Shown here: positions 2,756-58,100 of the stretch, one piece after another
How the letters are laid out: every line of letters begins with the position of its first letter
Position numbering within the stretch: position 1 is the stretch's first letter
Source of the DNA: Terfezia claveryi
Taxonomy: Eukaryota; Ascomycota; Pezizomycetes; Pezizales; Pezizaceae
Length of the DNA: 64,000 nucleotides
NCBI GenBank assembly: GCA_015179025.1
Contig: WHUX01000114.1
Coordinates: forward strand, 110,515 to 174,514
Direction: 5' to 3'
The notes under the pieces: generated by a model
The model's input: only the letters and a program-made list of their open reading frames with translations
Database searches by the model: none
What the model was told of the DNA's origin: nothing
Made by a program: the position numbers and the translations under genes

Positions 2756-2956
2756 GCTCCAGGAATCGAGACTCCTTTTTTTCTATAACCTTTAATACGA
2801 CTATGATCTTTGCCCGAGTAGTGATCGTTGCCAAATCAGGGTGACCACATCGTCGTCAACCTCAGTTACCTTGTTAAACCTATGCTACACTCCAAAATCT
2901 CCGCCTGTACCAGCCTTCACATCTGCACCCATATAATCCTATATATCCCGTTCCAT

Positions 2957-3182
2957 GTGAGCCTAGAATTCACCGTCCTTATTAGCCTGGATATCCGCGT
3001 CCATATGAGCCTGCAATTCACCATCCATATTAGCCTGGATATCCGCGTCCACATGAGCCTGTAATTGGGGTCCGTATTAGCCTGGATATCCGCGTCCGTA
3101 TGAGCCTGCAATTGGGCGTCCTTATTAACCTGGATATCCGCGTCCACATGATCGTGCAATTGGGGGGTCCTTATTAGCCTGG
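2957..3182. repeat. Minisatellite, ~48-bp unit, about 5 copies
   Basis: Unit of about 47-48 bp containing TGAGCCTGCAATT and TTAGCCTGGATATCCGCGTC, repeated head to tail with a few substitutions per copy. Apparent open frames here (2828-3064 plus, 2917-3159 minus) are by-products of the repeat. Confidence 0.85.
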
Positions 3183-3453
3183 CTTTCTCGGCCTCTAGAT
3201 CTGTATGATATTCATGCTCTCCCTACCTCTAGATCTCTATAATATTCATAACTTTTCGCCCTCGGGATCTGTATGATATTCAAGCTTTCCCGGCCTCTAG
3301 ATCTCTATGGTATTCAAGGCTTTTCGCCCTCTAGATCTGTATGATATTCAAGCTTTGCCGGCCTCTAGATCTGTATGATATTCATGCTTTCTCGGCCTCT
3401 AGATCTCTATGATATTCATGGCTTTTCGTACCCTAGATCTCTATGATATTCAT
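3183..3453. repeat. Minisatellite, ~34-bp AGATCT-containing unit, about 8 copies
   Basis: Directly abutting the 48-bp array. The unit contains CCTCTAGATCTGTATGATATT followed by CATGCTTTCTCGG or variants, each copy with a BglII-type AGATCT site. Two different unit lengths side by side suggest two independent expansions. Confidence 0.85.
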
Positions 3454-3457
3454 GGGA

Positions 3458-17314: not shown

Positions 17315-20300
17315 ATGGGCGGCCAGAAGAAGAAAGATTCCCGTTCGAAGCCCGCTCCTGACCCGCAGCTGGTCCAATCTTCGGGAGAACAAAAGTCCCA
17401 AGGAGCATCACTCCTCCCGCGTCTTTGGGACACGTTGAGAGGGAGATCCCGGTCTCCTAGTAGAAAGCGCGGCAGCAATACCCCAGAACAGCTAGTTGTA
17501 ACCTCTTCCTCTCAATCGCTCACAGTCCAAGCAAGCGTACCTGCGCGGCCTCATTCGTATTCAGGTTCCTCCGCCCTACAAGCGCATGGATTTTCATATT
17601 ATGATTCACCGTCGACAGATGCCGGAGTTGTTGTTACCATGGTGCCCTTCGGCGGCCACTGTTCACCTTCCTCCTCCATGTCTGGCGGCGCACCCATCGT
17701 TCCAATATCGAATCCTCCATCCACTAGCTATGGAGTAGTGCGTCGCAACAGTACCCCGGATCAGCCAACTCAATCGCTTGCTGTCCACAGTTCGTTATCA
17801 GATTCCTCCGCCCTGCAAACTCAGAGACCCTCACTTCATGACCTATCATCACCAACTGATGCCGGAGGCTCCCCTACCTCTGGCACACAGGATTCATTCA
17901 CCACATCTGTCAGCGCACCCATCGTTCGAATATCACATTCACAGTCCGAATCCATAGCAAGTGAAAATCCTGCACCTTATTCAGCCTATTCGTCCAATAT
18001 TCCAACTTCTAGCTGTCAAGCACAGGCCTCGGCTGAAATCGTTGTGCAAGCAGCAGCACCGCCTCAAACGAAGTCAGCATCACAGGTTTGGGCTAAGGCG
18101 TTGGAACTTGCTGAGAAGAAACTTAAAGACAACAACCTCCCACCACTCAATCTCACGAACCTCACCTCACAATCGGCAGGGGAAAATATTGAGGCTGTTG
18201 TCAAAGCGCTGAATGCTGTACAGGAGGATGATAGGAAAAAAAGGTGGAGCTATACCTGGTGTGGGAAGGAAGTTGTAGTCGTGGAACGTTTGGGGAAAAT
18301 TCTGAAAAGAGTGGAAAAATACTCAAAGGTTGTGGATATTGCAATTCAAGCTAATCCGCAGGTGAGTGCCTTAGTTTGGGCGGGTGTTTGGGGTATCATG
18401 CGGGTTCGTATTGACGCACTCTCCCTGAGACTCACCGGAATTTAAGCTTATTCACCAAATAGGTTGCGCTCAATCATGTAGAAGCAATCGAAGGCTTTGA
18501 GGTAGCCATAGCGGCACTTCTAGAAAAGATGGCTCTATGCGAGTTTTATGCCGGCATATATATTGGGGCTCCATTGTCTTCATTGTCAGCAGCGAATAGT
18601 TTACAGCGTCAGTGCCTGCTAGATTCTGCCTTACCAGAGCTCTATGCTGCTGTCATTGTGTTTGCAGTCAAGGCTCGTGCTTATTATGAAGCTAGAGGTA
18701 TGTATGCCGTATGTACTTCCACATACATAAGATACCATTATATTGTGCTAAACTTAGGTCAGTGCTCAAAAAAGTTACAAACATATTGAAGTCATTTGAT
18801 ATTGAATTTCAGCCTTTCATTGAAGACATCAATGCAAAAGAGAGGGCCATTCGGGAATATGCAGATGCTGCTACCATGGAAAAGATAAGGGGTATGGTCT
18901 TACAAACACTGTTGGTTACGTGTATCTTTAGGGAAAAGTCTAATGCGAGATACAGACATTGAAGGTGTCCTTCAGGATATTACGTCAGAATTGACCAAGT
19001 TGAATGGTAGGTGGGATACTTTCATTATGCGCTTTTTAACCTGGCCCATTACTCCTCAAATTGCCCCAGCCGCACCTAGTTTTATGCGTCCCAGATATTT
19101 TCTAAATGAGGCTATATGGGAATAAGGAATGCTAATGAGACTGTATGAACAGACATATCAACTACAGCAACTCACGCACTCAAAGTGACTGAAGAAATCC
19201 GCAAGAACACCCAGGGTACTTTTAAAATCTCTCTTACTTAGGGTTAAGCTAAATAAGAATGCTGATGAGACTATATGAACAGACATATCAACCACAGCTA
19301 CTCACGCACTTAAAGTGACTCAAGAAATCTGCAATAACACCCAGGGTACCTTTAAATTTCTCATACCTATATAGGATTAAGCTGAATAAGGAATGCTGAT
19401 GAGACTTGATGAACAGACATATCAACTACAGCTACTCACGCACTCAAAGTGACTGAAGAAATCCACAATAACACCCAGGGTACCTTTAAGACTCCTCGTA
19501 CCTGTATAGGGTTAAGCTGAATAAGGAATGCTGATGAGACTGGGTGAACAGACATATCAACTACAGCTACTCACGTACTTAAAGTGACTCAAGAAATCCG
19601 CAATAACAACCAGGGTATCTTAAATTTCTTATACCTATATAGGGTTAAGCCGAATAGGAATTGCTGATGAGACTGGATGAACAGACATATCAACTACAGC
19701 TACTCACGCACTCAAAGTAACTGAAGAAATCCGCAATAACACCCAGGGTACCTTTAATTTTCTCATACCTATATAGGGTTAAGCTGACTTCTCCAGATGA
19801 CAGGATACTTGAACTATTGGAAATGTTGACCCCATTGGAGCCACTCAAGAGACACCAGGATGTGAAGATGTCTCGTACCAAAAATGCTGCTGCATGGCTC
19901 CTAGGTCTTGAATCTTTCTGCAAATGGCGAGATAGCAACATTACAGAAGAGGGTGGTCATGTCTTTTGCTGTTATGGAATACCCGGTGCGGGAAAAACTG
20001 TAATTAGGTATTGAGTCAAATTTACAATTCCATCTATTATCGATTATGTAGCTGGAAACTAATTTCATCAAATCTCATACAGCTCCATTGTTATTGATGA
20101 TCTTTACTCTCAATTTCATAAAGTTCATCCTGACATAGGGATTGCTTGTTTGTATGGTGACTATAAGGATCAAGAAAGCCAAACCTTGGTCCATATTCTT
20201 GGTTGCTTTCTGCGTCAATTTCTAACCACTGCCGGAAAACCTATACCAGATGGAGTAATTGAAAGGCTTAATGACATCCGGCACCGGGGTGGGAAAGCCG

Positions 20301-23300
20301 GAGCGGGCGATATTTTAGCTCTACTTAATATATGGTTACAACAACTCAAGCGTGCATTTATCTGTATAGATGCCGTGGATGAGCTTGAACCAAAGGTTCA
20401 GCAGCAGCTTCTCGACGTACTTAAAAAGTTGGGCGTTAATAATGTTCGCTTATTCCTTACGGGGCGGAGTCATATTGAAGATGAAGTGCAGAAGCGCTTT
20501 CAAGTGGTGCAGCAATATAAAATCGTCATTAGCGCCAGTCGGCAGGACCTCCAGGATTTCTTGCAGCAGCAAATCAGGGATGATCTGGATACAGATGCAA
20601 TGGACGAAGCATTGCAAAAGGATATTATAGAGGCAATCATTGGAAAGTCTCAGGGAATGTGGGTTATAGAGTTCATCATCTATATTAGCTCATGTACTGA
20701 TTTATCTTTCCAGGTTTCTGCTTCCCGCCTTGCACATCAAAATGGTCCTAGGGATGACTACAAAGTCTAAACGACGGAAAGCACTGGAAACACTGCCAAC
20801 TGATCTTTATGAGTCATTCAAAAGTGTCATTACGAGAATTCGGGAATGTCTCAGTAAGAGCCAGGCTGAGTTGGGTATGCAAGTACTCATGTGGCTTCAT
20901 TTTGCCTACCAACCACTGAAGCTTACGGAACTTCAACATGCGCTAGCTGTTGAGAAGGGTGATATGGAATTCGATCCGGAAAATATTCCTTCACGGAAAG
21001 CTCTACTAGACTGCTGTCTTGGATTGGTTATTTTGGATGAAGAGACATTCACAGTACGCTTTATGCACTACACACTTGAAGAGTACTTCTGCAAATATGC
21101 CGGGACAGAATTCCCAGATGGACACAGTTCTATCGCCGAAAGTTGTTTGACTTACCTTAACTTTGCAAATCTGAGACAGCATTGTGAGAATGATTTTAGT
21201 CTGATTGCAAAGCTGGAGAAATATACATTCTTAGAGTATGCATCACTTTATTGGGGGACCCATTACAAGCATCAATGCAATGATGGCCTGACAAAACTCG
21301 CAAATATGATACTGAACCATGAGAGCAACTGCCCACCCTGTTCTATACAAGCCTTGTATTGGGAACTTGCATATGAGATGGCAGAGAGATTTTCAGGGCC
21401 CCATGTAGCAGCATACTTTGGATTGACTGAAAATATGGCGTATCTCTGTAAGATAGGGTGGGATATAGAGAAGAAAGACGATAGTGACCGGACCCCTCTT
21501 TCTTGGGCGGCTGAGAAGGGGCATGAGGATATTGTGCGGCTTCTAATCGAGAGAGATGATGTTGATATCAATACTAAGGCCAAATGGAGGAGGACACCCA
21601 TCTCATTGGCAGCTAAGAATGGGCATGAAGCTGTTGTGCGGCTGCTGATCGAGCGAGAAAATATTGACATCAATGCTAAGGATATGCTTGGTAGTACACC
21701 CCTCTCACGGGCAGCTTTGGATGGGCATGAGGCTATTGTACGGTTGCTAATCAAGCGAGATGATGTTGATATCAATGTTAAGGATAAACTTTGGCAGACA
21801 CCCCTCGGATGGGCAGCTGAGCAAGGGCATGAGGCTGTTGCGCGGTTGCTGATGGAGCGAAATGATGTTGATATCAATGGTAAGGACAATTTGGGGCGGA
21901 CACCCATCTTATGGGCAGCTCTTTTTGGCCATGAGGCTGTTGTGCGGCTGCTGATCGAGCGAAATGATGTTGATATCAATGCTAAGGACGATAGGGGGCG
22001 GACACCCCTCTCATGGGCGGCTGAGAAGGGGCATGAGGCTGTTGTGTGGCTACTGATCGAGCAAGATGATGTTGATATCAATGCTAAGGACGAGTATGGG
22101 CAGACACCCCTCTCATGGGCGGCTGAGAAGGGGCATGAGGCTGTTGTGCGGCTGCTGATCGAGCGAGATGATATTGATATCAATGCTAAGGACCATTTGG
22201 GGCGGACACCCCTCTCATGGGCAGCTTTGAATGGGCATGAGGCTATTGTGGGGCTGCTGATTGAGCGAGATGATGTTGATATCAATGCTAAGGACAATAT
22301 GGGGCGGACACCCCTCTTATGGGCAGCCGGAAATGGGCATGAGGCTGTTGTGCGGCTGCTGATCGAGCGAGATGATGTTGATATCAATGCTAAGGACGAC
22401 GAATATGGGCAGACACCCCTCTCATGGGCAGCTGAGAATGGGCATGAGGCTGTTGTGTGGCTGCTGATCGAGCAAGATGATGTTGGTATCAATGCTAAGG
22501 ACGATAGGGGGCGGACACCCCTCTCATGGGCAGCTGAGAATGGGCATGAGGCTGTTGTGCGGCTGCTGATCGAGCGAGATGATGTTGATATCAATGCTAA
22601 GGACGACGAATATGGGCAGACACCCTTCTCATTTGCAGCTGAGAATGGGCATGAGGCTGTTGTGCGGCTGCTGATTGAGCGAGATGATGTTGATATCAAT
22701 GCTAAGGACAATATGGGGCGGACACCCCTCTTATGGGCAGCCGGAAATGGGCATGAGGCTGTTGTGCGGCTGCTGATCGAGCAAGATGATGTTGATATCA
22801 ATGCTAAGGACGAGTATGGGCAGACCCCCCTCTCATGGGCAGCTGAGAAGGGGCATGAGGCTGTAGTGCGGCTCCTGATCAAGCAAGATGATGTTGATAT
22901 CAATGCTAAGGACAATCTTGACGAGTATGGGCAGACACCCCTCTCATGGGCAGCTGTTTTTGGGCATGAGGCTGTTGTGCGGCTGCTGATCGAGCGAGAT
23001 GATATTGATATCAATGCTAAGGATAATCTTGGGCAGACACCCCTCTCATGGGCAGCTGAGAATGGGCATGAGGCTGTTGTGCGGCTGCTGATCGAGCGAA
23101 GTGATATTGATATCTTTAAGGACAGTCGCGGGCGGACACCCCTCTCATATGCCGCTCTGAATGGGCGAGAGGCTGTTGTGCGGCTGCTACTAGATCGAGG
23201 TGATGTTGATATCAATGCTAAGGACAAGCAAGGGCAGACACCACTCTCATTTGCAGCTGCGAATGGGCATGAGGCTGTTGTGCGGCTGCTGCTCGAGCGA

Positions 23301-24227
23301 AATGATGTTGATATCAATGCTAAGGACGATAGGGGGCGGACACCCCTCTCATATGCCGCTCAGAATGGGTGTGAGGCTGTTGTGCGGCTCCTGATTGAGC
23401 GAGATGATATTGATATCTCTAAGGATAGTCGTGGGCAGACACCTCTCTCATATGCCGCTCAGACTGGGAGTGAGGCTGTTGTGCGGCTGCTGATTGAGCA
23501 AGATGATGTTGATATCAATGCTAAGGATAATCATGGGCAGACACCCCTCACATGGGCGGCTAAGAAGGGGCGTGAGGCTGTTGTGCAGCTGCTCCTTGCG
23601 AGACATGATATTGATATCAATTCTAGGGACAGTCGTGGGCGGACACCCCTCTCATTTGCAGCTCAGAATGGGCATGTGGCTGTTGTGTGGCTGCTCATCA
23701 AGCGAGATGATGTTGATATCAATGCTAAGCAGAAGAATCGGCGGACACCCCTCTCATATGCAGCTCAGAATGGGCATGAGGCTGTTGTGCAGCTGCTGAT
23801 TGAGCGAGATGATATTCATATCAATGTTAAGGGCGATGAATATGGGCAGATACCCCTCTTATGGGCAGCTGCGAATGGGCATGAGGCTGTTGTGCGACTG
23901 CTGATCGAGCGAGATCATATTGATATCAATGCTAAGGATAGTCATGGGCAGACACAACTCACATGGGCAGCTAAGAAGGGGCGTGAGGCTGTTGTGCGGC
24001 TGCTGCTAGAGCGAGATGATATTGATTTCAATTCCAAGGACAGTCATGGGCGGACATCCCTCTCATTTGCAGCTCAACATGGGCATGAGGCTGTTGTGCG
24101 GCTGCTGATTGAGCGAGATGATAGTGATATCAATTCTAAGGACAATCGTGGGCGGACACCCCTCTCATTTGCAGTTGAGAATGGGCATGAGGCTGTCGTG
24201 CGGCTGCTGATCGAGCGAAAATCGTAA
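17315..24227 (+). CDS. NLR/STAND protein: helical N-domain, tandem-exon coil, NACHT, ~27 ankyrin repeats
   Basis: Twelve exons: 17315-18403, 18463-18697, 18763-18891, 18932-19006, 19153-19215, 19283-19345, 19417-19479, 19552-19614, 19685-19747, 19797-20007, 20083-20658, 20714-24227. They sum to 6144 nt, 2048 codons including TAA, with all phases consistent. Residues 1-230 are Ser/Pro-rich. About 240-509 is the helical domain seen at the N terminus of fungal NACHT proteins (PQVSALVWAGV, FYAGIYIGAPL). 510-614 are five copies of a 21-residue unit. The NACHT has Walker A GIPGAGKT (~675), Walker B FICIDAVDEL (~775) and sensor LFLTGR. A winged-helix-like segment (LKLTELQHALAVEKG, VRFMHYTLEEYF) precedes ankyrin repeats from ~1133 to the end. 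Proteins of this type sense non-self or internal cues and can trigger heterokaryon-incompatibility-like responses. No effector domain is visible beyond the N-domain. Domain names are recognised from memory; intron borders are inferred from phase and homology. Confidence 0.9.
19153..19747 (+). repeat. Tandem array of five 63-nt exons with ~70-nt introns
   Basis: Exons 19153-19215, 19283-19345, 19417-19479, 19552-19614 and 19685-19747 are each exactly 63 nt, start after CAG, end in CAGG before GTA, and are phase 1 at both ends. Each encodes ISTTATHALKVTEEIRNNTQ or a close variant, joined by an Asp made across the splice junction. The intervening introns (67, 71, 72, 70 nt) are also near-identical. 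The repeat unit is therefore an exon plus an intron (about 130-135 bp). The 21-residue period equals three heptads. Confidence 0.9.
21481..24227 (+). repeat. Ankyrin-repeat array, ~102-bp unit, about 27 units
   Basis: Units follow the pattern GRTPLSWAAENGHEAVVRLLIERDD then DINAKD plus linker, mostly 34 residues. Some carry two- to three-residue linker insertions (DDEY, DNLDEY) and two are one residue shorter (IFKDSR, ISKDSR). Adjacent units are so similar in DNA that recent unequal exchange is likely. The array also keeps a long antisense frame open (21272-23317), which I treat as a by-product. Confidence 0.92.
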
Positions 24228-30617: not shown

Positions 30618-32985
30618 TATTCAATATTCTCATGACAGGCATACTACAAAGGTTGGTGGATATATTGAGAATCTCATGCATGCGAGAGAACACTCATGAC
30701 ACTCATGCCGATCGTCACGTGGGTGGCGATCGTTACGCAGTTAGTGATACTATTGTAGATCGATACAAGCATTCCAGTATTCGCTATCAGAAATTGACTG
30801 GTCTAGATAGTGTGTATATCGCACAATTACAACTAGACGGGGCAACCAATTAGAATGGTTCTATCATGATATATAAATAAATATATTCACAAGTTGACGG
30901 AGAAGGGTAGGAAATGATGACTGCAAATGCTATGACCCGAGTCAGCCGGCTCGCATTTGCAGCACCACCTGCGTGTGTCTAGGGAAGAGATGTTGTCGTC
31001 CCACCGTGATTTTGCGATTGCTACATAGGATTATACCTAAGGGTAGGTATACTATCACTTACTAGGTAATGATCGGCTACATAGCAACCAGATATATTGC
31101 CGAGAGCGAAGTCCCCACGGTATGCTTCTATATTATCAAACGGCAATACCTATAGGGTAATTGCAGTCGCTGGATTCGATTATCATGTCGGCAGCTCTCT
31201 CAGGGTGGCCGTGAACTCGCTATAGTATTCACAACCTCGGCAGCACCTGCAACGCCCCTTCTACTGTAGAGCTCCCAGCCCATGACCATGCTCCACCATA
31301 TATGGCTGTTCACTTAGTACATGGCATGCATGTAGGTCGACCTCACCACTTCTGTAAGCTAAGGAACCCCAGCGTAGTCTTGTTAATAGTGCCAGGGCCC
31401 TAGCCATGCGTGCGTGGCACAAGTCGGGTTTGCGTGAGAAAGACAAAACGAAATGACTTTGCTTATTCGTCCGTGCTGTCTTGACCTAATGTAGTTACTG
31501 ACCAGCAGATTGAGTAAGGCAGCCATATCAGACGATAAGGACAAATGAGTGATTGCGCATCAGAATATATAGTATGAGTACTTGCATATCTACTTCAACT
31601 AGGAGAGCTACAAGGATAAAGGTAGAAGTATCTAAAGGCCAATGAAAGGGATCTTGAAAACGCTAGTGATGTACAGGCAAGTAGCCCGTGTTATTCGAGC
31701 TACAAAGACTGTAACTTATGTATATCGTATGTACATATACTACTACCTGTAGGGTTTATTATACACACATCGTAGTATCTCTTAATATTTGACAGTCATT
31801 CTAAATAGGAACACTAAGTTATCCCACCCGCTCTGGTTAAAGGCCACTGTCTTCCTCAATATGCACGCTACTCGCTCAACATTGGGATCGCTGGAGTAAA
31901 ACATTATTACGAGTTAAAATTGACTCACATTGATAAATGTATTTTGCAAAATTGACGTAGGTCACCTGCCCATGATGCCCATGACGTAGACATGTCAGCC
32001 CCACTAGACCTACTGTATCTAGCTATGAGCTATGTAAAGATATTAGCACTATGCAGCACTATGCAACGATATCGCTTGTGAGACACATCCTTGATCTGAC
32101 ACCTGAGTGGCTGTCCCAAAGATGTTCTCACTAGCATGCGCCCGTTTTTACTCCATCAGGTATTGACGAGGTTAACTGACATATGATAGATAGTTGGAAC
32201 TGGCCATTTACTGCATGTCTCTATGTTTGGTAGTAAATTACAGGTCGTTATAACGAAACCATTGTATATGCGATGTGACGGTTTATGTCAATCGGTGATT
32301 CGAGAATTCTCTCTTTCAGTACTGAGTTTTTCTGTCGAAGCTCCTGCAAGCCCAATGAAAAAGATACCTATTAGCCGATGAAAGATCAATGCCTGAGTAT
32401 CAAATGGGAATTAGTACAAGTGGATCCTACCTTGTGAGCCTGGTATGAGCCCCACCCTGCTCAAGCCATCTAGCGCTCTATGCGAGAGAAACGAAGGAAA
32501 TTGGAGGTGTTGGTTTCATGTTGATCCATCGAGACGCCCGCCGCGCGAAGAGGCGCTGAAGCTCAGGGCACACGACAGCGCTAGCGCTTATTGTCCTGCT
32601 TCATTTTACACATTTTATTTCAGTAATCTGCAGCAATATGGGATTTCCTGGTCTCCTTCGCACATTTAACCAGCCCATACCGTGGTACAGGCCATGCACA
32701 TGCGCGGGGCCGCGAGCCTTGCTAATTAACCTACCAGCGGCCACGTCGAAGGTGGCCACGGAGTCTAGTGGTAACGTAGGTATGCAAAACTAGGAGTGGT
32801 GCGTGAGTTAATTCGCGACCGCAATATGATAAAGCGTCTCTATTTCTGGGTCTCATGAGCCCGGAGTATAATATAAGAGTCCCCGGACTTTGCCTATACA
32901 ACTTGATCAGTACAAAATTTCAGAAATAAAACCTCCACGTGGATATCTGAATAAACATATACAGTTATCTATATCAATTGTCGTC
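30618..32985. other. Intergenic, upstream of the monooxygenase
   Basis: No gene recognised. A TATA-like TATAATATAAG lies at about 32868, some 115 bp before the ATG at 32986. Confidence 0.4.
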
Positions 32986-35005
32986 ATGGGTAACCCACTC
33001 CAAACCCAAACAGCTCTGACTGGGCCACCACCTGAGCTTGATGTTATCGATCCAAGCATTGTCAATGCTTCAAAAACATCAGAAATTACAGAGAAATACC
33101 AAAAAGAACGTGCGAAGCGACTTCGACCGGAAGGTAATTCCCAGTTCGTCGAGTTGACTACTGTGAGCAAACTCGCAAACTCCAGAAACGATCCCTGGCT
33201 GCAAATCGATACGGAGAATGGGAATCGCATTGGAAACACCAATTCTACGCCTAAACGCTGCAAGTACCTCATTATTGGAGCAGGATTTGGCGGACTTCTC
33301 TTCGCTGTCCGATTGCTACAAGCGGGAATTAAAATCGATGATTTATGGATTGTAGATTCCGCCGGTGGATATGGGGGGACCTGGTATTGGAATCGCTTCC
33401 CGGGGCTCATGTGTGACGTAGAAAGTTATATCTACATGCCTCTATTAGAAGAGATGGAATACATGCCAAAGCATAAGTATGCTTATGGTCCTGAGTTGAG
33501 AGAGTATGCAGAGAAAATCGCCGCCAAGTGGAAGTTAAGGAAGAATACGTTGTTCCGCACCGAGACAAGCACCATGACCTGGGATGAGAATGAGAAGGAG
33601 TGGGTCGTTGAACTGTCAAGGCAATATACCAGCAAATCCAAGCCGCAATTCAATGTTCGATCACAATACATATTCCTGACCTCCGGCGTTTTAAATGTTC
33701 CCAAAATGCCCCGTATTCCTGGACTCGAGAATTTTCACGGCCACAGTTTCCATGCCTCCCGTTGGAACTACGCTTATACTGGAGGTTCGCCCACAGACCC
33801 ATCGTTGAACAATTTGAGGGATAAGAAAGTAGGCATCATTGGCACAGGTGCAACAGCCGTTCAAGTTATACCCGAGCTTGCCAAATGGGCCAAAGAGCTT
33901 TATGTCTTCCAACGCACTCCAACAGCCGTCGACAGCAGAGGCCAGCATGCCACTGATCCTGACTGGTGGAACAAAAAGGTTGCAAACAAGCAGGGCTGGC
34001 AGAAGGAAAGGGTGGACAATTTCAGCGCCCATATGTCTAAGGTCACACCCCTACCAGCTATCAATCTAGTTGATGACCAGTGGACCGATGGCTGTTTCCA
34101 CGCCCTGATTGGAACCCCTGGCTTTCTAACACCGGAGAAAATACCTGCTCATATCGCTTCCCTGCATGCTTTGGATTTACCACACCAAGAACGCATCCGT
34201 TCACGGGTTGAAGAAATCGTTAAGGATAAGGCTACTGCTGAAAAGCTGAAGCCTTGGTACTACTCCTGGTGCAAGCGACCATGTTACCATGACGAGTACC
34301 TCCCCGCTTTTAATCTTCCCAATGTCAAACTCATAGATACTGATGGAAAGGGTGTTGAGCGTGTGACGGAGAATGGTGTGGTGGTGCAGGAACAGCAGAT
34401 TGAACTGGACCTCCTGATCTTCAGCACGGGATACAGGGCGCCTTCCGATGGTAGCCCAGGTTCTCGTGCTGGCATTTCAATCACTGGTCGTACGCAGAAG
34501 ATGGAGGAGAAATGGGTTGAAGGGGCGGGTACATTGCATGGAGTCATCACCGGGGGTTTCCCAATTTATTCTTGACAGGACCTACCAAACCGGTGCAACA
34601 GCAAACTGGACGGCTGTCCTAGACCAGCTAGCAATACACACTTCCTATATAATATCTGAGGCAGAGGCAAAGGCAACCAAGAAGAGAAGAAAGGGAAAGG
34701 TTACAATCGAACCAACCGTAGAGGGTGAGGAGGGTTGGTCCATGCAGATCATGTCAAGAGCAGGATCTTTGGCGGCGGCTGCTGGGTGCACCCCCGGGTA
34801 TATCAACAGGGAAGGGGATGCAGATCGTGTGACGACGATAGAAGAACAGATGAAAGCAGCAAAAAGTGCAATTTGGGGCCATGGATTTCTAGATTATATC
34901 GGTGTCCTTGAGGATTGGCGGACTAAGGGAGGTCTGGAAGGTCTGGAGGTGAGCACATGGAGCGGAAGGCTAAGGCACGTTGGGAACTTGGCAGTTGCGC
35001 CGTGA
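32986..35005 (+). CDS. Baeyer-Villiger monooxygenase (FAD/NADPH), two one-base frame breaks
   Basis: Start chosen at the first ATG of the frame (32986, GTCATGGGT). The FAD Rossmann motif GAGFGG is at residue ~98, followed by GGYGGTWYWNRFPG and CDVESYIYMPLLEE. The Baeyer-Villiger fingerprint FHGHSFHASRWN (FxGxxxHxxxW, here followed by N instead of P/D) is at ~250, and the NADPH Rossmann motif GTGATA at ~286. Such enzymes insert oxygen next to a ketone, giving esters or lactones, in catabolism or secondary metabolism. The first frame stops at 34575, but GATANWTAVLDQLAIHTSYI continues in another frame to TGA 35003-35005. The region between reads NLFLTGPTKP in the third frame, so two single bases are missing, near 34563 and near 34590. 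Expected length is about 673 aa. No neighbouring tailoring genes are visible, so there is no cluster evidence. Confidence 0.88.
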
Positions 35006-47777: not shown

Positions 47778-48932
47778 TTTTTTTTTTTTTTTTTAAATAC
47801 TTTAGTACTCCTATGCAGCCCCGACGAGGGGCTATGAGGAGCCACGCGGAAGCCCGGTGGATTCAAGGGAGAGGCAAGTTAGTCTGCCAATCCCTTCGCA
47901 GAAATAAATACATATGGCGAGGAGATGCCCCCTGCTGTCATTAATGGACTGACCAATGACTCGAAAGCCTGACTGAGCCTAAACCCCATAAGCCGCAGAA
48001 CTGAGAGAACCAAAACTATGGACTTAAAGGAAACACCAAGGAGACTCGTGAATAAAGGTATCCAACAAAAGGGAACTCGTAGATAAAGAGCTGAACTTAG
48101 ATTAACTCTCCATATAATAGACCAAAGAAGGCCTCAGTGGCCTCGTATCTATCCTCATCCTCCTCTCTCCAGTCTGGCTCGTCTAGCTCCTCCCAGCTCC
48201 CCTTGCCCCCTAACAGGTCTCCGCGAATTCGGTTGAAGCGTGGGCACCTGAAGACTATGTGCTCTCCAGTTTCGGTGTGGTGGCCGCATGGGCACTCTGC
48301 TGATTCCGATTTGCCGATATGGTGTAGCCAGCTCCGTTGTGGACCTCTATTTGTGCGTAGCCAGGTGTAGGCCGATAGAGCGTGCCGATTCCACTCCGCT
48401 CTTCTCAACCCAAAGCCTTCTTTCGTCCTTGCTTCTTTCCGCCTGACTTTGGAAGTTGCACGAAGTCCTCCTTCCGTTATTGTGCGTTGCTCGCCTACGA
48501 ACTCCCCTAGATGTGACTGTAGGTTTGCTGATCGGTCCGCCTTCTCGTTGCCCGGGATGCCTAGATGGCCTCTAACCCACGATATCTGGAGATCCCTGTG
48601 CTGATTGGAGGTGATGAGGGATTTGATGCTCTTTTCGATGCCGGATCTGGGTGGGGACCCTGAGCCCATGTTGTGGATTGCCTGTATTGCTGCCTGGGAG
48701 TCGGATAAAATTGCCAGCATGTCTGCGCTCTCTTTCTGTAGGGCTATTTGCATCGCAAAGAGTTCACCGTCTGCTACCGTTGCTTGGTCTCCTAGGAAGC
48801 CCCCGTAATCCTCTGTCGTGCCCCCTCCTCGATCCTCGCTGTGGACTCCACTCGCCACTATTCCTTTTCTTCCGGTGCCATCTGTGTAACACGTCCTCCA
48901 CCCTTCTTCTAATATTGAACTTATCCCCGCTG
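47778..48932 (-). mobile_element. Inner LINE fragment with 14-bp target-site duplication
   Basis: GGTCTATTATATAC at 47764-47777 and 48933-48946 flanks a minus-strand insert with a poly(A) of about 17 (poly-T from 47778). It is truncated just upstream of the RNase H domain and sits inside the 46960-49704 insertion, so it is the younger of the two. Confidence 0.85.
48097..48932 (-). CDS. LINE ORF2 C-terminal part: RNase H and Cys-rich tail (5'-truncated)
   Basis: Open on the minus strand from the insert edge to TAA at 48097. RNase H acidic residues are present: YTDGTG, the E of DGELFAMQ, LSDSQAAI and GNEKADR. WVRGHLGIPGNEKAD is typical of Tad/I-clade LINE RNase H. A CPCGHHTETGEHIVFRCPRF segment resembles the Cys/His motif near the end of these ORFs, and the product ends EATEAFFGLLYGELI. 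In an intact element this domain removes the RNA template during target-primed reverse transcription. Here there is no upstream reverse transcriptase, so it is non-autonomous debris, though the frame is unbroken, suggesting recent insertion. Confidence 0.8.
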
Positions 48933-50469: not shown

Positions 50470-53400
50470 AATTCAAATGATCGTATTCACTAGGGAACAT
50501 ACATATACTTGGAAGGTTCACAAGGATTCTGAGATAAATAAATACATCACTATAGGAAAACTTACTATTGCGACTCCTAGCACTACTGCTACCCTCAACC
50601 GAAACATGATCTCGACGCCCATGCATCCCGCACAACGAGAGGCTTGTACAATATTTGAATTCCTTACCTGCACATTACTTCGATCATTCAGCATCCACAC
50701 AGCAGCCTCAAGCCCCTTATCGGGCGCTAATGAATGGAGTGTCTGCCCATAATCGACGTCCTTAGAGTTGATGGTAACGTTATCTCGCTCGATCAGCAGC
50801 CTCAAAACAGCCTCATGCCCAAAAACTAGCTACCCATGAGAGGGATGTCCGCCCATATTCATCGTCCTTAGTATGGATATCATCATCTCACTCGATCAGC
50901 AGCCGCACAACAGCCTCATGCCCATTCCCAGCTGCCAATGAGAGGGGTGCCTGCCCACTATCGTCCTTAGTATTGATATCAATATCAACTCGCTCAATCA
51001 GCAGCCGCACAACAGCCTCATGCCCATTCTCAGCTGCCAATGAGAGGGGTGCCTGCCCACGATCGTCCTTAGTATTGATATCAATATCAACTCGCTCAAT
51101 CAGCAGCCGCACAACAGCCTCATGCCCATTCTCAGCTGCCAATGAGAGGGGTGCCTGCCCACGATCGTCCTTAGTATTGATATCAATATCATCTCGCTCA
51201 ATTAGCCGCCGCACAACAGCCTCACGTCCCTTCTCAGCTGCCAATGAGAGGGGTGTCCGCCCACGACCGTTGATATCAACATTATCTCGCTCAATTAGCA
51301 GCTGCACAACAGCCTCATGCCCCTTCTCAGCTGCCAATGAGAGGGGTGTCTGCCCATGCTTGTCCTTAGCATTGATATCAACATCATCTCGCTCAATCAG
51401 CCGCCGCACAACAGCCTCATGCCCACACCCAGCTGCCAATGAGAGGGATGTCCGCCCATCGATGTCATTAGCGTTGATATCAACATCATCTCGCTCAATC
51501 AGCAGCCGCACAACAGCCTCACGCCCCTTCTCAGCTGCCAATGAGAGGGGTGTCCGCCCATCAATGTCATTAGCATTGATATCAACATCATCTCGCTCAA
51601 TCAGCAGCCGCACAACAGCCTCACGCCCCTTCTCAGCTGCCAATGAGAGGGGTGCCCGCCCATCAATGTCATTAACATTGATATCAACATCATCTCGCTC
51701 AATTAGCAGCCGCACAACAGCCTCACGTCCCTTCTCAGCTGCCAATGAGAGGGGTGTCCGCCCACGATTGTCCTTAGTATTGATATCAACGTCATCTCGC
51801 TCGATCAGCAGCCGCACAACAGCCTCACGCCCCTTCTCGACTGCTAATGAGAGGGGTATTTGCCCAAAATCGTCCCCAGCATTAATATTAACATCATCTC
51901 GTTCGATCAGCAGCCGCACAACAGCCTCATGTCCAAAAGCAGCTGCCCATGAGAGCGGGGTCCGGCCAAATTCATCTTTCTTCTCTATATTATGGCCTAT
52001 CTTACAGAGATACGCCATATTTTCACGCAATCCAAAGTATGCCGCTGCATGGGTCCCTGAAAATCTCTGCACAGTGCGTTTCGACCGTGATATCTGAAGC
52101 CCTCTCCATAAGGCTTGTATACCACAGGGAGGGCGGTTGCTCTCATGGCTTAGCATCATATTTGCGAGTTTTCTCAGGCCATCATTGCATTGATGTTTAT
52201 AATAGGTCCCCCAAAAAAGTGCCGCATAGTTCAAAAATGCATATTTGTTCAGCTTTGCACTCAGACTATTGTCATCCGTACAATGCTGTCTCAGATTGCC
52301 AAGGTTAAGGTACGTTAAACAATTTTTGGCAATAGAACTGTGCCCATTTGGGAATTCTCTGTCGGCATATTTGCGGAAGTACTCTTGAAGTGTGTAATGC
52401 ACAAAGCGTACTGTCAATGTCTGTTTATCCACAATAACCAACCCAAGACAGCAGTCTAGTAGAGCTTTCCGTGAAGGAATATTTTCTGCATCGAATTCCA
52501 TATCGCCCTTCTCAATAGCTAGCACATGTTGAAGTTCCGCAAGCTTTAGTGGTCGGTAGGCAAAATGAAGCCACATGAGTACTCGCATACCCAACTCAGC
52601 CTGGCTCTTGCTGAGGCATTCCCGAATTCATTTTTTTGGTCCCTATAATCGGCGTACAAACAAGCAATCCCTATACTACAATTTTCGTGGAATTGAGAAT
52701 AAAGCTCGTCGATCACAATAGAGCTATATAATGAGTTAGCAGGTGTTAATTACCCTTAAGCCCAGTATATTGCATGGGATTGGAGGTATATATGATTCTA
52801 TACCTAATCACGGTTTTCCCAGCACCGGGTATCCCAAAACAGCAGAAAACACGGATGCAATCTTCGACTGGTATAATGTTGCTATCGTTGCTATCTTGCC
52901 AGTTGCAGAAAGATTCAGAACTCAGGAGCCATGCACCAGCGTTTTTGGTACGAGGCATCTTCACATCATAGTGACTCTTGAGTGACTCCAATGGGGTCAA
53001 TATTGTCAATAGTTCAAGTATCTTGTCATCTGGGGAAGTCAGCTTAACCTATATAGGTATGAGAAATTTAAAGATACCCTGGGTGTTATTGCGAATTTCT
53101 TCAGTCACATTGAGATTGCGTGTAGCTGTAGTTGATTTGTCTGTTCATGCAGTCTCATCAGCATCAGTTCCTCACATATAACCCCATTGGGAAAATATCC
53201 GGGCTAGGCGCGGCTGGGGCGGTAATGGACAAGTTAAAAATGACATAATGAAGTTTCCACCTACCATTCAACTTGGCCAAAGGTTTAGGTTCTGACGTAA
53301 TATCCTGAAGGACACCCTCAATGACTGTATTCCCGCATTAGATTTTTCCCCTATTATATACGCATCCAACAGTGTTTGTAGGACATACCCCTTATCTTTT

Positions 53401-53847
53401 CCATGGTAGCAGCATCTGCACATTCCCGAATAACCCTCTCTTTCGAATTGATGTCTTTAATGAAAGACTGAAATTCAATATCAAATGACTTCTTCAACGT
53501 GTTTGTATTTTTTTTGAGCCCTGATCTTACTTTAGCACAATGTAATGGTACCACATACGGCACACAAACCTCTAGCTTCAAAATAAGCACGAGCCTTAAC
53601 TGCAAACACAATGACAGCAGCATAGAGCTCTGGTAAGGCAGATTCTAGCATACGCTGACGCTGTAAGCTATTCGCTGCTGACCCTGAAGTCAATGGAACC
53701 CCAACGTATATCCCAGCATAAAACTCGCATATAGATATCTTTTCCAGAAGCGCCGCTATTGCTACCTCATAACCTTCAATTGCTTCTACATGATTGAGCG
53801 CAACCTATTCCGTGAATAAGCTTAGTTCCGGTGAGTCTGAGGGAGAG
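50470..53847 (-). pseudogene. Truncated paralog of the 17315-24227 NLR gene
   Basis: Homology starts inside the intron that follows exon 1 of the intact gene, so exon 1 is absent. The N-domain exons are recognisable from 53814 downward, and one 63-nt repeat exon lies at 53078-53140. Walker A (GIPGAGKT) is present near 52820-52845. The segment from just after the Walker A exon start (LYADYRDQ) to before ECLSKSQ is deleted, about 0.65 kb relative to the intact copy. This removes Walker B and most of the NACHT and leaves the halves out of frame. The ankyrin part (52594-50888 minus) has 11 repeats, then TGA at 50888-50890 where sister repeats have CGA; a few more decayed repeats follow. Not expected to make a functional NLR, although a short ankyrin ORF of up to 568 codons remains open. 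Confidence 0.85.
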
Positions 53848-55177: not shown

Positions 55178-58100
55178 ATGTCCAAAGAACGATCAATTCC
55201 AAAGATCGAGCCCAAGCTTAGCGGACAATAGGACTATGCTCAATGGATATTATCCATTGAGCAAACGCTTAGCAGCTATGAACACAAAGATGAGACTATA
55301 TGGGAAATCGTCACTGGAGATGTCCAAGATCCAGATCCCACAGCCACTGAAAAAGCCAGGGATGCAGATGCTAAAGCCTGGAAGAAAGATAACAACTTCG
55401 CAATCCTCACAATGAAAAGAAATTGCGAGAAAGAAGTTGTAGATATCATTGGACTAGCCAGAACAGCCAACGAAGCCTATAAAGAGCTGAAGGTAAAATT
55501 CGAAGGCAAAACTGTCACTACACTCGGAGCTCTACTTATTGGAGTCATCAAACTCAGCTATAATGATAGAAATAGTTCAATCGAAGAACATATTAGTGAG
55601 TTCGACAAAAAATAGGGATTCATAAGATCTATGCTGGGAGAAACAATCCCAGACGACCTTAAAGAATTCGGAACAATATTGACAGGATTAAGCAAAAACG
55701 ACCAAGCCAAAGGAACGTTTCTGCTAGCCACTCTTCTGCCCTACTACAACACTCTCATCGAAAATATCCAGATGAAGAGTGGACTTACCTATGGAGATAT
55801 CACTATACATCTCAAAACATACGTCCTAGGAAGGCAAAAAGGGAAGAGGAGGGGAGATAACGCTGGAGAATCGATACAAAACCTAGTAGTGCTCAAAACA
55901 GGAGCTGGCAGAGGACACGATTAAGGAGATAATAGCAAATGATGTGATTACTGCATCAGCAAAGGATGGAAGGGGCTGAACCATACAGAAGCTGAGTGCT
56001 TTACCAAAAAGTGCGAGAAAAGAAAGGTCAAGAAGGCTAAGAAGGAAGACTCCGACAATAGAGAAACTGATGAAGAAGGAGTCACTATTAAGGTTGTCCG
56101 GATTGGGAAACCAGGGTAGGATGAGAAGGATGTTATGAGTACGATACAGCAGCCACCCACCATACAACCAACGAATACGACTGACTTACTGATATCCAAC
56201 ACAACCTCAGTATTAAGGTATCCGCCCACGACCAAACCGAGTCCATTTACTACACTATAGGAACTCTAGTCTTCAGACATAATGGCCGAAACATCCGTCA
56301 CGAATAATGCTTATATGACCCCATATACAGCAACATCATTAGTGGCTTTCGGATGCTAGAGGACTTCATCATGCAAGGAAAAAAGGGCAAGGTAGAGCTA
56401 AAGACAGGAAGAAAGGTACTCTACAAAATGGATTGAGATATTGATGGGATGTGGATCAAGCCTGAGAATACAGCCAAAAACTGGAAGGGAGCAGGAATAA
56501 AAAGGATTAAGGAAAAAGAAGCTGCAATTAGCCTACATGAAAGGTATGGACACATTTCCTATAATACCCTTAAAACTCTCCCCGAATATCCGAAGGATCA
56601 GAAAGAGAAGATCCGATGCAAGGCGTGTGAACAAGGGAAGGCCACCAAACCGGCTACACTCAAGCAGCCCAAAGATCTACAGATCAGGACAAACCGACTT
56701 CTAGAACGGGTCCATACAGACCTTGTTGGACCAATCGAACCTCCCACACCTAGCAAACAATACCGATATCTGCTAGTGATCGTGGACGACTTCAGCCAGT
56801 ATATAGCTGTACAGCCCCTTTGAAAGAAGAGCGAGACTGGAAAAGCGTTAATTGAAATAATTAACAAACTGGAAGCAGCCACAACCCTACGAGTCAGCCA
56901 AATCCAAGCAGACTGGGGAGGAGAATTCCGCAACAATGAGCTACAAGAAGAACTAAAGCAACGAGGCATAGCCTCTAAAGAAACTATCCCAAAGCATAGT
57001 GAAACAAATGCTATAATCGAACGAGCAAACCGAACGATCCTTACTATAAGTAGGACTGCTCTAATAGGGTCAACTCTACCTAAAGGCCTGTGGGACAAAG
57101 CTTCGAGCTGGGCAGCCTATACGAGAAATCGAATTCCCCACAAAACTCTTCAAGGAAAAACCCCTATCGAAATCATGCTCAAAAAGGACCTGGAGGCCAA
57201 GCGAACAAAGCTAAGACCATTCGGATAGCGAGTCCTCTGTTTTAACTACGACATCTCTGATAAGCTCTCTCCAAGAAGCTATGAAGCCAATATAATCGGT
57301 TATACAGAAAGCTTTGAGAGCTACCAGGTACAAACAGATACTGGCCAGATTAAACTCGCTCTCCGACTAGTCCCTATAGAAAGTTCGGAGACTAGCAGCT
57401 CAGAATCTCCGGATGAAGCCCCTAGCGAAGGGCCTAAGGAAAACGACATTATCCTGGAAGACCCAATATCACCAATACCAGTTCCCTAACCTGTGGCACC
57501 ACCTCCAATAAAGAGGCCTAGAAAGACTACTCGAGATTGGGAAAGCATGGTCGGTACCAGAAAATCAGAGCGACAGCCAGTCCGGAGGAAGATATTCGCA
57601 GTAGGAGCTGATTCGGATCACCCAACCGATGAGCAAGCCTGCAACTCTCCACAAGCCTTAGAATGGGCTAAAGCTCGAGCTAAAGAACGAGAGCAATTGA
57701 ATCGATATGGGGTATACACCAAGATCGATAAATCCAAAATCCCCGAAGGAATACGGATTGTTGATACCAAATGGGTATACCTAGTCAAAAGAAAAGTAGA
57801 CGGAAGTATTGAAAAATACAAAGCTCGCAAAGTTGGGAGAGGATTCACCCAAGAAGTAGGTGTCAACTACGACGAAACCTACGCACAAATGATGCGCCCT
57901 GAAACACTCAAAATCCTCCTAGTCATCGCCCTTCACCGAGATTGAGCAATCCGCCAATGGGATGTTGTAGCTGCATACTTGCAAGCTCTCCTTGAACACA
58001 ATGTCTACATCACAGATGTGAATGAAGAAGGAGAGGTTGAATACTGGAAGCTTGATAAAGCTCTCTATGGCTTAAAGCAAGCAGGATACGAATAGTTCAA

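Follow-up and report, generated by a model that had tools for sequence, protein, structure and literature searches.

A tandem array of 63-nt linker exons in a fungal NLR-like gene and its probable origin by exon duplication and unequal exchange

Analysis of a 64,000-nt stretch of DNA of Terfezia claveryi (hereafter the window, C18:110515-174514) revealed an NLR-like gene in which the linker between the N-terminal domain and the NACHT-type NTPase appears to be encoded by a tandem array of five short repeat exons, the number of which varies among paralogs. The whole explanation favored here, with a probability of about 0.6, is that a duplicated linker exon gave rise to the array, that unequal exchange changed the number of units, and that the units would set the length of a helical stalk. 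The helix, the recombination history and the effect on assembly are what we infer from the sequence. One genome (72.56 Mb, 794 contigs) was used for comparison.

Structure of the focal gene

Pfam analysis of the first 1145 aa of the hand-made gene model (Table 1) gave the domain order DUF7708, linker, NPHP3_N/NACHT, ankyrin repeats. DUF7708 was found at residues 326-466 (37 bits, cut-off 25), and NPHP3_N, a NACHT-class NTPase, at residues 625-791 (80.5 bits, cut-off 24.8), where the Walker A motif GIPGAGKT is present; the profile PF05729 (NACHT) reached just 13 bits in the focal protein, under its cut-off of 26.7. C-terminal ankyrin repeats begin at residue 1085, with Ank_2, Ank, Ank_4 and Ank_3 above cut-off. 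The array thus lies between the N-terminal domain and NACHT, as proposed in the original prediction. No paper naming DUF7708 was found in the open-licence literature searched, and the accessible part of PMC12258605 mentions neither a 'linker' nor DUF7708. A search of the genome with the DUF7708 profile gave three places, on C113 and C712, and none in the family of the focal gene, which is missed because introns split the domain there.

An alternative, longer exon 4 with a start at 18932 is open in the focal gene. The extension contains an in-frame stop in 13/13 other paralogs with a match covering the region, apparently the TAA of the branch site.

Every repeat exon is a variant of DISTTATHALKVTEEIRNNTQ, and the prediction of five exons of exactly 63 nt, in phase 1 at both ends, proved right in its coordinates, with AG and GT at all five. 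The internal introns are 67, 71, 72 and 70 nt long. Pairs of exons within the array are 90.5-96.8% identical and the intron flanks approximately 78-95%; 'near-identical', as the introns had been called, is too strong. Tandem Repeats Finder (TRF) reported periods of 133 (score 1045) and 268 (score 1065) over 19120-19787, and by these periods and scores the array is far beyond chance. Repeat exons 2 and 4 share bases that distinguish them from exons 1, 3 and 5. Since the grouping of the intron flanks disagrees with this division, the array is described as a mosaic. A clean two-unit higher-order repeat was rejected: the 268-nt row is slightly above the 133-nt row, yet the intron flanks group otherwise.

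Other features of the window include adjoining tandem repeats with periods of 24/48 nt and 34 nt (2943-3455) and, by eye, ORFs resembling LINE-type RNase H and copia-type reverse transcriptase (48097-48858, minus strand, and 57493-57945, plus strand, respectively) and a Baeyer-Villiger type flavin monooxygenase (32890-34575, plus strand).

Table 1. Features of the focal gene and of its decayed paralog (positions in the window)
Feature	Position	Strand	Basis
NLR-like gene, 12 exons, 2025 aa, hand-made model	17315..24227	+	GT/AG junctions, single open frame
Exon 3, phase 1/1, end of DUF7708 (...ATMEKIR)	18763..18891	+	Splice model, Pfam; conserved in paralogs
Exon 4, 51 nt (17 aa), phase 1/1, DIEGVLQDITSELTKLN, start of linker	18956..19006	+	Splice model
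First flanking intron, 146 nt; 3' part like 3' part of every internal intron	19007..19152	+	
Repeat exon 1, DISTTATHALKVTEEIRKNTQ	19153..19215	+	63 nt, phase 1/1
Repeat exon 2, DISTTATHALKVTQEICNNTQ	19283..19345	+	63 nt, phase 1/1
Repeat exon 3, DISTTATHALKVTEEIHNNTQ	19417..19479	+	63 nt, phase 1/1
Repeat exon 4, DISTTATHVLKVTQEIRNNNQ	19552..19614	+	63 nt, phase 1/1
Repeat exon 5, DISTTATHALKVTEEIRNNTQ	19685..19747	+	63 nt, phase 1/1
Four internal chimeric introns (19216-19282, 19346-19416, 19480-19551, 19615-19684)	19216..19684	+	
Last flanking intron, 49 nt; 5' part like 5' part of every internal intron	19748..19796	+	
Exon 10, start of NACHT part (...GIPGAGKT, Walker A)	19797..20007	+	Splice model, Pfam
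Ankyrin repeats, 102-nt period, 26.6 copies, last exon	21490..24218	+	TRF, Pfam
Single 63-nt unit in decayed paralog (pseudogene)	53078..53140	-	

Coding constraint on the repeat units

A search of the genome with unit DNA gave 23 matches, which represent 21 loci; all but C11:60973 were examined, 20 in total. When one mismatch at most was allowed, a 19-base core of the unit was found 30 times, always on C11, C18, C89, C205 or C322; up to three mismatches gave 83 matches, compared with 43 for the reversed control, which marks most of the looser matches as noise. The 20 arrays contain 35 delimited units, one per exon and with symmetric phase. Their length is constant at 63 nt in 31; two are 42 nt, one is 61 nt and one is 55 nt. 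In both L007 and L011 the second unit is 42 nt long, shorter by exactly one heptad (21 nt), and its ends coincide in the two paralogs.

One frame is open in 30/30 intact 63-nt units, against 3/30 and 0/30 for the other two, and the counts of variant bases are 34, 31 and 91 for codon positions 1, 2 and 3. The pooled dN/dS of these 30 units is 0.37; it is 0.39 in single-unit genes (8 units, bootstrap 0.18-0.71) and 0.36 in multi-unit genes (22 units, bootstrap 0.18-0.61). Left out of this set were five of the 35 units (both units of L010, the 55-nt unit of L039 and the two 42-nt units), as well as three undelimited fragments of L008; units of broken-looking genes, e.g., the minus-strand gene of the window, L004, L009, L012 and L019, were kept. 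For the focal array alone dN/dS is 0.41, which by itself shows nothing, since the bootstrap interval is 0.09-1.90. To judge by these patterns, the units, when pooled, behave as coding exons under coding constraint. Confidence that the repeat exons are real and spliced is high, and all five are predicted to be spliced in the focal gene.

Number of units among paralogs

The arrays, some of them in broken genes, contain 1, 2, 3 or 5 units. Five units were found in the focal gene alone, three in L002 and L003, and two in L004, L005, L006, L007, L009, L010 and L011, while L008 carries a broken two-unit array. Nine arrays, namely, that on the minus strand of the window and those of L012-L017, L019 and L039, consist of one unit. 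At L009 (G000:C18:20667-29578, locus L023 and neighbours), the first exon is interrupted by approximately 5.3 kb of unrelated DNA that may be an insertion.

Ten genes were checked by matching conserved pieces rather than by full models, and in seven of them the pieces contain no stops and are open into the ankyrins: the focal gene (5 units), L002 and L003 (3 units), L006 and L011 (2 units), and L015 and L017 (1 unit). The number of units therefore differs among intact-looking genes. The first-exon match of L003 is incomplete and the ankyrin stretch of L017 is short; in L004 the exon-2 match is split over two frames, L012 stops ahead of the ankyrins, and L013 has no first-exon match. Variation in unit number without loss of frame, which had been anticipated, is in this way present among the paralogs of one genome.

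The single unit of the minus-strand paralog, with which the focal array had been compared, is real. In this gene (window 50888-53804), no first-exon match was detected at E 1e-4 and part of NACHT is missing; the protein match breaks off at residue 33 of exon 11 and resumes at residue 43 of the exon-12 piece, and the ankyrin frame is cut by a stop near 50888. The gene is a pseudogene and was ruled out as a working comparison, because such a copy cannot show the state of a working paralog.

Exons 2, 3 and 10 are up to approximately 92% alike among genes with 1, 2, 3 and 5 units. A tree of 20 genes (17 close genes and three of the more distant C77 group) was built from these exons; L010, L019 and L039 were left out, and L008 was scored as having two units. 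Parsimony requires eight changes of unit number on this tree, in which 11/17 inner branches have support below 80. L002 pairs with L017 (bootstrap 96 and 92 in two runs), and L003 with L015 (65 and 94).

Origin of the array

In the C77 group, one 72-nt phase 1/1 exon (e.g., EISDALNENVKVSKEILKRSLRAE), the ends of which were chosen by eye, was found in 3/3 loci between the homologue of exon 4 and NACHT. Its alignment score against the focal unit was reached by 17, 7 and 42 of 5000 shuffles, and that of the exon-4 homologue by 0/5000. Whether the array had expanded or the other copy had shrunk was left undecided in the original prediction; since all three C77 paralogs have one such exon, a single linker exon is probably the ancestral state, as far as one genome allows. 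G000:C77 and G000:C21 are two further, more distant NACHT-like groups, and in the three C21 paralogs read by eye (L044-L046) neither the unit nor exon 4 was recognised. Exon 4 was rejected as an older copy of the unit: its alignment score was reached by 4077/5000 shuffles with the focal unit and by 699/5000 with the C77 unit.

The internal introns, 15 in ten multi-unit genes, all aligned with the same chimeric join (15/15). Their 5' part resembles the last flanking intron (GTACCTTTAAA...GGGTTAAGCT), and their 3' part the first flanking intron (GAATAAGGAATGCTAATGAGACTGTATGAACAG). The CTRAY branch site near the acceptor is kept in 15/15; the branch site of the last intron, CTGAC, sits at the join, where the fit to CTRAY is lost in 15/15. 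The first introns of the family fall into two classes by their 3' ends, GATAAAGAGATG-like and GAATAAGGAATG-like, the latter resembling the internal introns, a likeness that replacement of first units through exchange could explain.

According to the scheme that we favor, the two introns flanking one linker exon would have recombined, which duplicated the exon a single time. The resulting hybrid intron would have combined the donor of one parent intron with the branch site and acceptor of the other. As the exon length is a multiple of three, both its ends are in phase 1 and the hybrid intron is complete, the duplicate could have been spliced, in frame, from the start. The number would then have moved up and down among the paralogs, to 1, 2, 3 and 5, through unequal crossing-over of units of approximately 133 nt; the intron joins fit unequal exchange, the process originally put forward. 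The common join suggests a single founding duplication with later unequal exchange, although gene conversion among paralogs, after more than one duplication, could also have spread it.

Properties of the linker

No Pfam family was above cut-off over residues 471-592, and the units were not recognised as sensor repeats (LRR or TPR). Glycine and proline are absent from the focal array. Hydrophobic residues in the unit recur with a period of 3.5 residues, to a degree that 0.65% of 2000 shuffled 21-mers reach; among the five other periods tried, the values for 2.0 and 3.6 were reached by 1.6% and 2.4% of shuffles and those for 3.0, 7 and 2.33 by 50-67%. The periodicity makes 'three heptads' a fair description, but a canonical coiled coil was not predicted: with a COILS-type score based on a reconstructed matrix, the probability of a canonical coiled coil is near 0 over the array at windows of 14, 21 and 28. 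The maximum of this score, 0.6 at window 21, was found at the end of exon 3 and in exon 4. Core-like positions of the array are rich in Thr, Asn and Ala, and the unit resembles an amphipathic helix whose core is polar.

Ten NCBIfam families matched the linker, including SMC- and ZorA-type ones, all below cut-off (best TIGR00996, E 2e-5, 23.9 bits, cut-off 140.5). These matches were rejected and may be read as likeness among long polar helices. A sequence search of solved structures gave four matches up to E 1, the best at 0.14, none of them convincing. Variability within the unit peaks at codons 8-10 (pN 0.29 and pS 0.38, against 0.077 and 0.23 elsewhere), which may reflect relaxed constraint or diversification; residue 9 is A, N, T, I or V across the family.

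As a candidate function, each unit would lengthen an amphipathic helix, with heptad periodicity and a polar core, by 21 residues, approximately 3 nm if straight. The number of units would then set the length of a stalk and, through it, the reach and packing between the N-terminal domains and the NACHT ring on assembly.

It is possible, though we hold it only tentatively, that the number of exons drifts neutrally, i.e., that the linker tolerates any count of in-frame helical units without consequence and that constraint just keeps each unit helical and soluble. The eight changes on the weakly resolved 20-gene tree, and the neighbours with three units and one unit in it (L002 and L017, L003 and L015), agree with such drift, and no property tracking the number of units, or functional correlate of it, was found in the genome compared. 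Against it, the pooled dN/dS of multi-unit genes is below 1, so the sequence of the units matters. Units of the focal array, moreover, differ at 12% of synonymous sites (pS 0.123) and are all still open and 63 nt long, which makes it probable that the array is not brand new.

Splicing of the array

Donors after the units are mostly GTACCT. G at position +5 was found in 2/35 unit donors, broken units included, compared with 16/17 donors of exon 2 and 17/18 of exon 3 in the same family; leaky splicing is plausible at unit donors that lack it. Skipping of any unit keeps the frame. Retention of any of the six focal array introns, around and within the array, leads to an in-frame stop, and so does retention of each of the 15 internal introns of the family (15/15, as a raw count).

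These properties could be taken to mean that diversity is produced by splicing, with weak donors making the symmetric exons optional and one gene giving linkers of one to five units. The rarity of +5G and the in-frame outcome of every skip speak for this, and brown algal receptors, in the portion of PMC11378527 available, alternatively splice tandem repeat exons. We nevertheless consider it unlikely. The donors of single-unit genes are of the same type as those of multi-unit genes, and +5G is present in 1/3 C77 units; the weak donors were for this reason probably not acquired for the array and seem older than it. Fungal splicing, furthermore, proceeds mostly by intron definition, which favors retention over skipping.

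Retention itself might act as a switch, with unspliced array introns truncating the protein after DUF7708 to a head-only product and with more units offering more chances. Stops in all six focal and all 15 internal introns, together with the donors without +5G, agree with it, but introns often hold stops by chance and nonsense-mediated decay may remove such messages; we regard this switch as improbable. That the array is a non-coding minisatellite in one long intron, with exon 4 joined directly to exon 10, would keep the frame, since the end of the former and the start of the latter are both in phase 1, but it is very improbable in view of the codon-position bias, the single frame open in 30/30 units, lengths that are mostly constant or multiples of three, the kept splice sites, and the homologous single exon at the same place in 3/3 C77 paralogs.

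Comparison with known systems

Duplication of a linker exon followed by unequal exchange, as favored here, has relatives in principle among known repeat-exon systems, from which the focal array differs in its place, its unit and its recorded join. WD, ANK and TPR repeats of the hnwd type are contained in one exon. The arrays of such repeats in fungal NLRs are highly similar, e.g., in Podospora hnwd (cited in the available text of PMC9815663 and PMC10197012), and as in the focal family, copy number and content are shuffled by exchange between near-identical units; those, however, are sensor repeats at the C-terminus rather than linker units.

The original prediction named no precedent for an intron-bearing exon array in the linker. 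Arrays of repeated exons are known outside the linker in brown algal and Prunus immune receptors; in the linker of a fungal NLR none was found in the open-licence literature searched. Tandem repeat exons occur in the LRR-ROCO and NB-ARC-TPR candidate immune receptors of brown algae (available part of PMC11378527, which cites Teng 2023); each LRR of the ROCOs is encoded by a single phase-2 exon of 72 bp, and these exons are shuffled and undergo alternative splicing (same source). One exon of fixed length per repeat, a variable number and exchange between exons are common to both systems, as far as that text goes, whereas the brown algal repeats (LRR, TPR) are sensors and the units described here are 63 nt, in phase 1 and in the linker of a fungal gene. 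The Prunus Ma/RMja TNL is likewise an NLR gene in which exons were duplicated; it carries five repeated post-LRR domains, and its relatives have gained and lost such exons (sections available of PMC6141779). Its repeats are C-terminal post-LRR exons in plants, in contrast to a short linker unit.

The nank (NACHT-ANK) genes of Tuber melanosporum contain 3-bp mini-exons (Iotti 2012, as cited in the available text of PMC4986451, PMC9815663, PMC3689799 and PMC10197012). They too are fungal NACHT-ankyrin genes in an expanded family, with many tiny frame-safe exons. Those 3-nt exons are said, in these sources, to diversify the C-terminal sensor; 3-bp exons were not found in the sensor region of the focal gene, the exons of which are 63 nt long and lie in the linker.

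Linker length could conceivably serve as a pairing code, an idea of low probability, in which assembly would be best between equal numbers of units with matching residues at the core-like position 9. If so, the number of exons would keep sister NLRs apart, and a single gain or loss of exons through unequal crossing-over would be enough to create new receptors that sort themselves.

Work on the diversity of fungal NLRs usually looks to the sensor repeats and to which N-terminal domain is present. In the focal family, the segment joining the N-terminal domain to the switch varies in fixed steps, with frame and splicing built in. Paralogs with 1, 2, 3 and 5 units offer a natural length series for asking if linker length matters in NLR assembly, and the common intron join clearly records one way in which a tandem exon array may begin.
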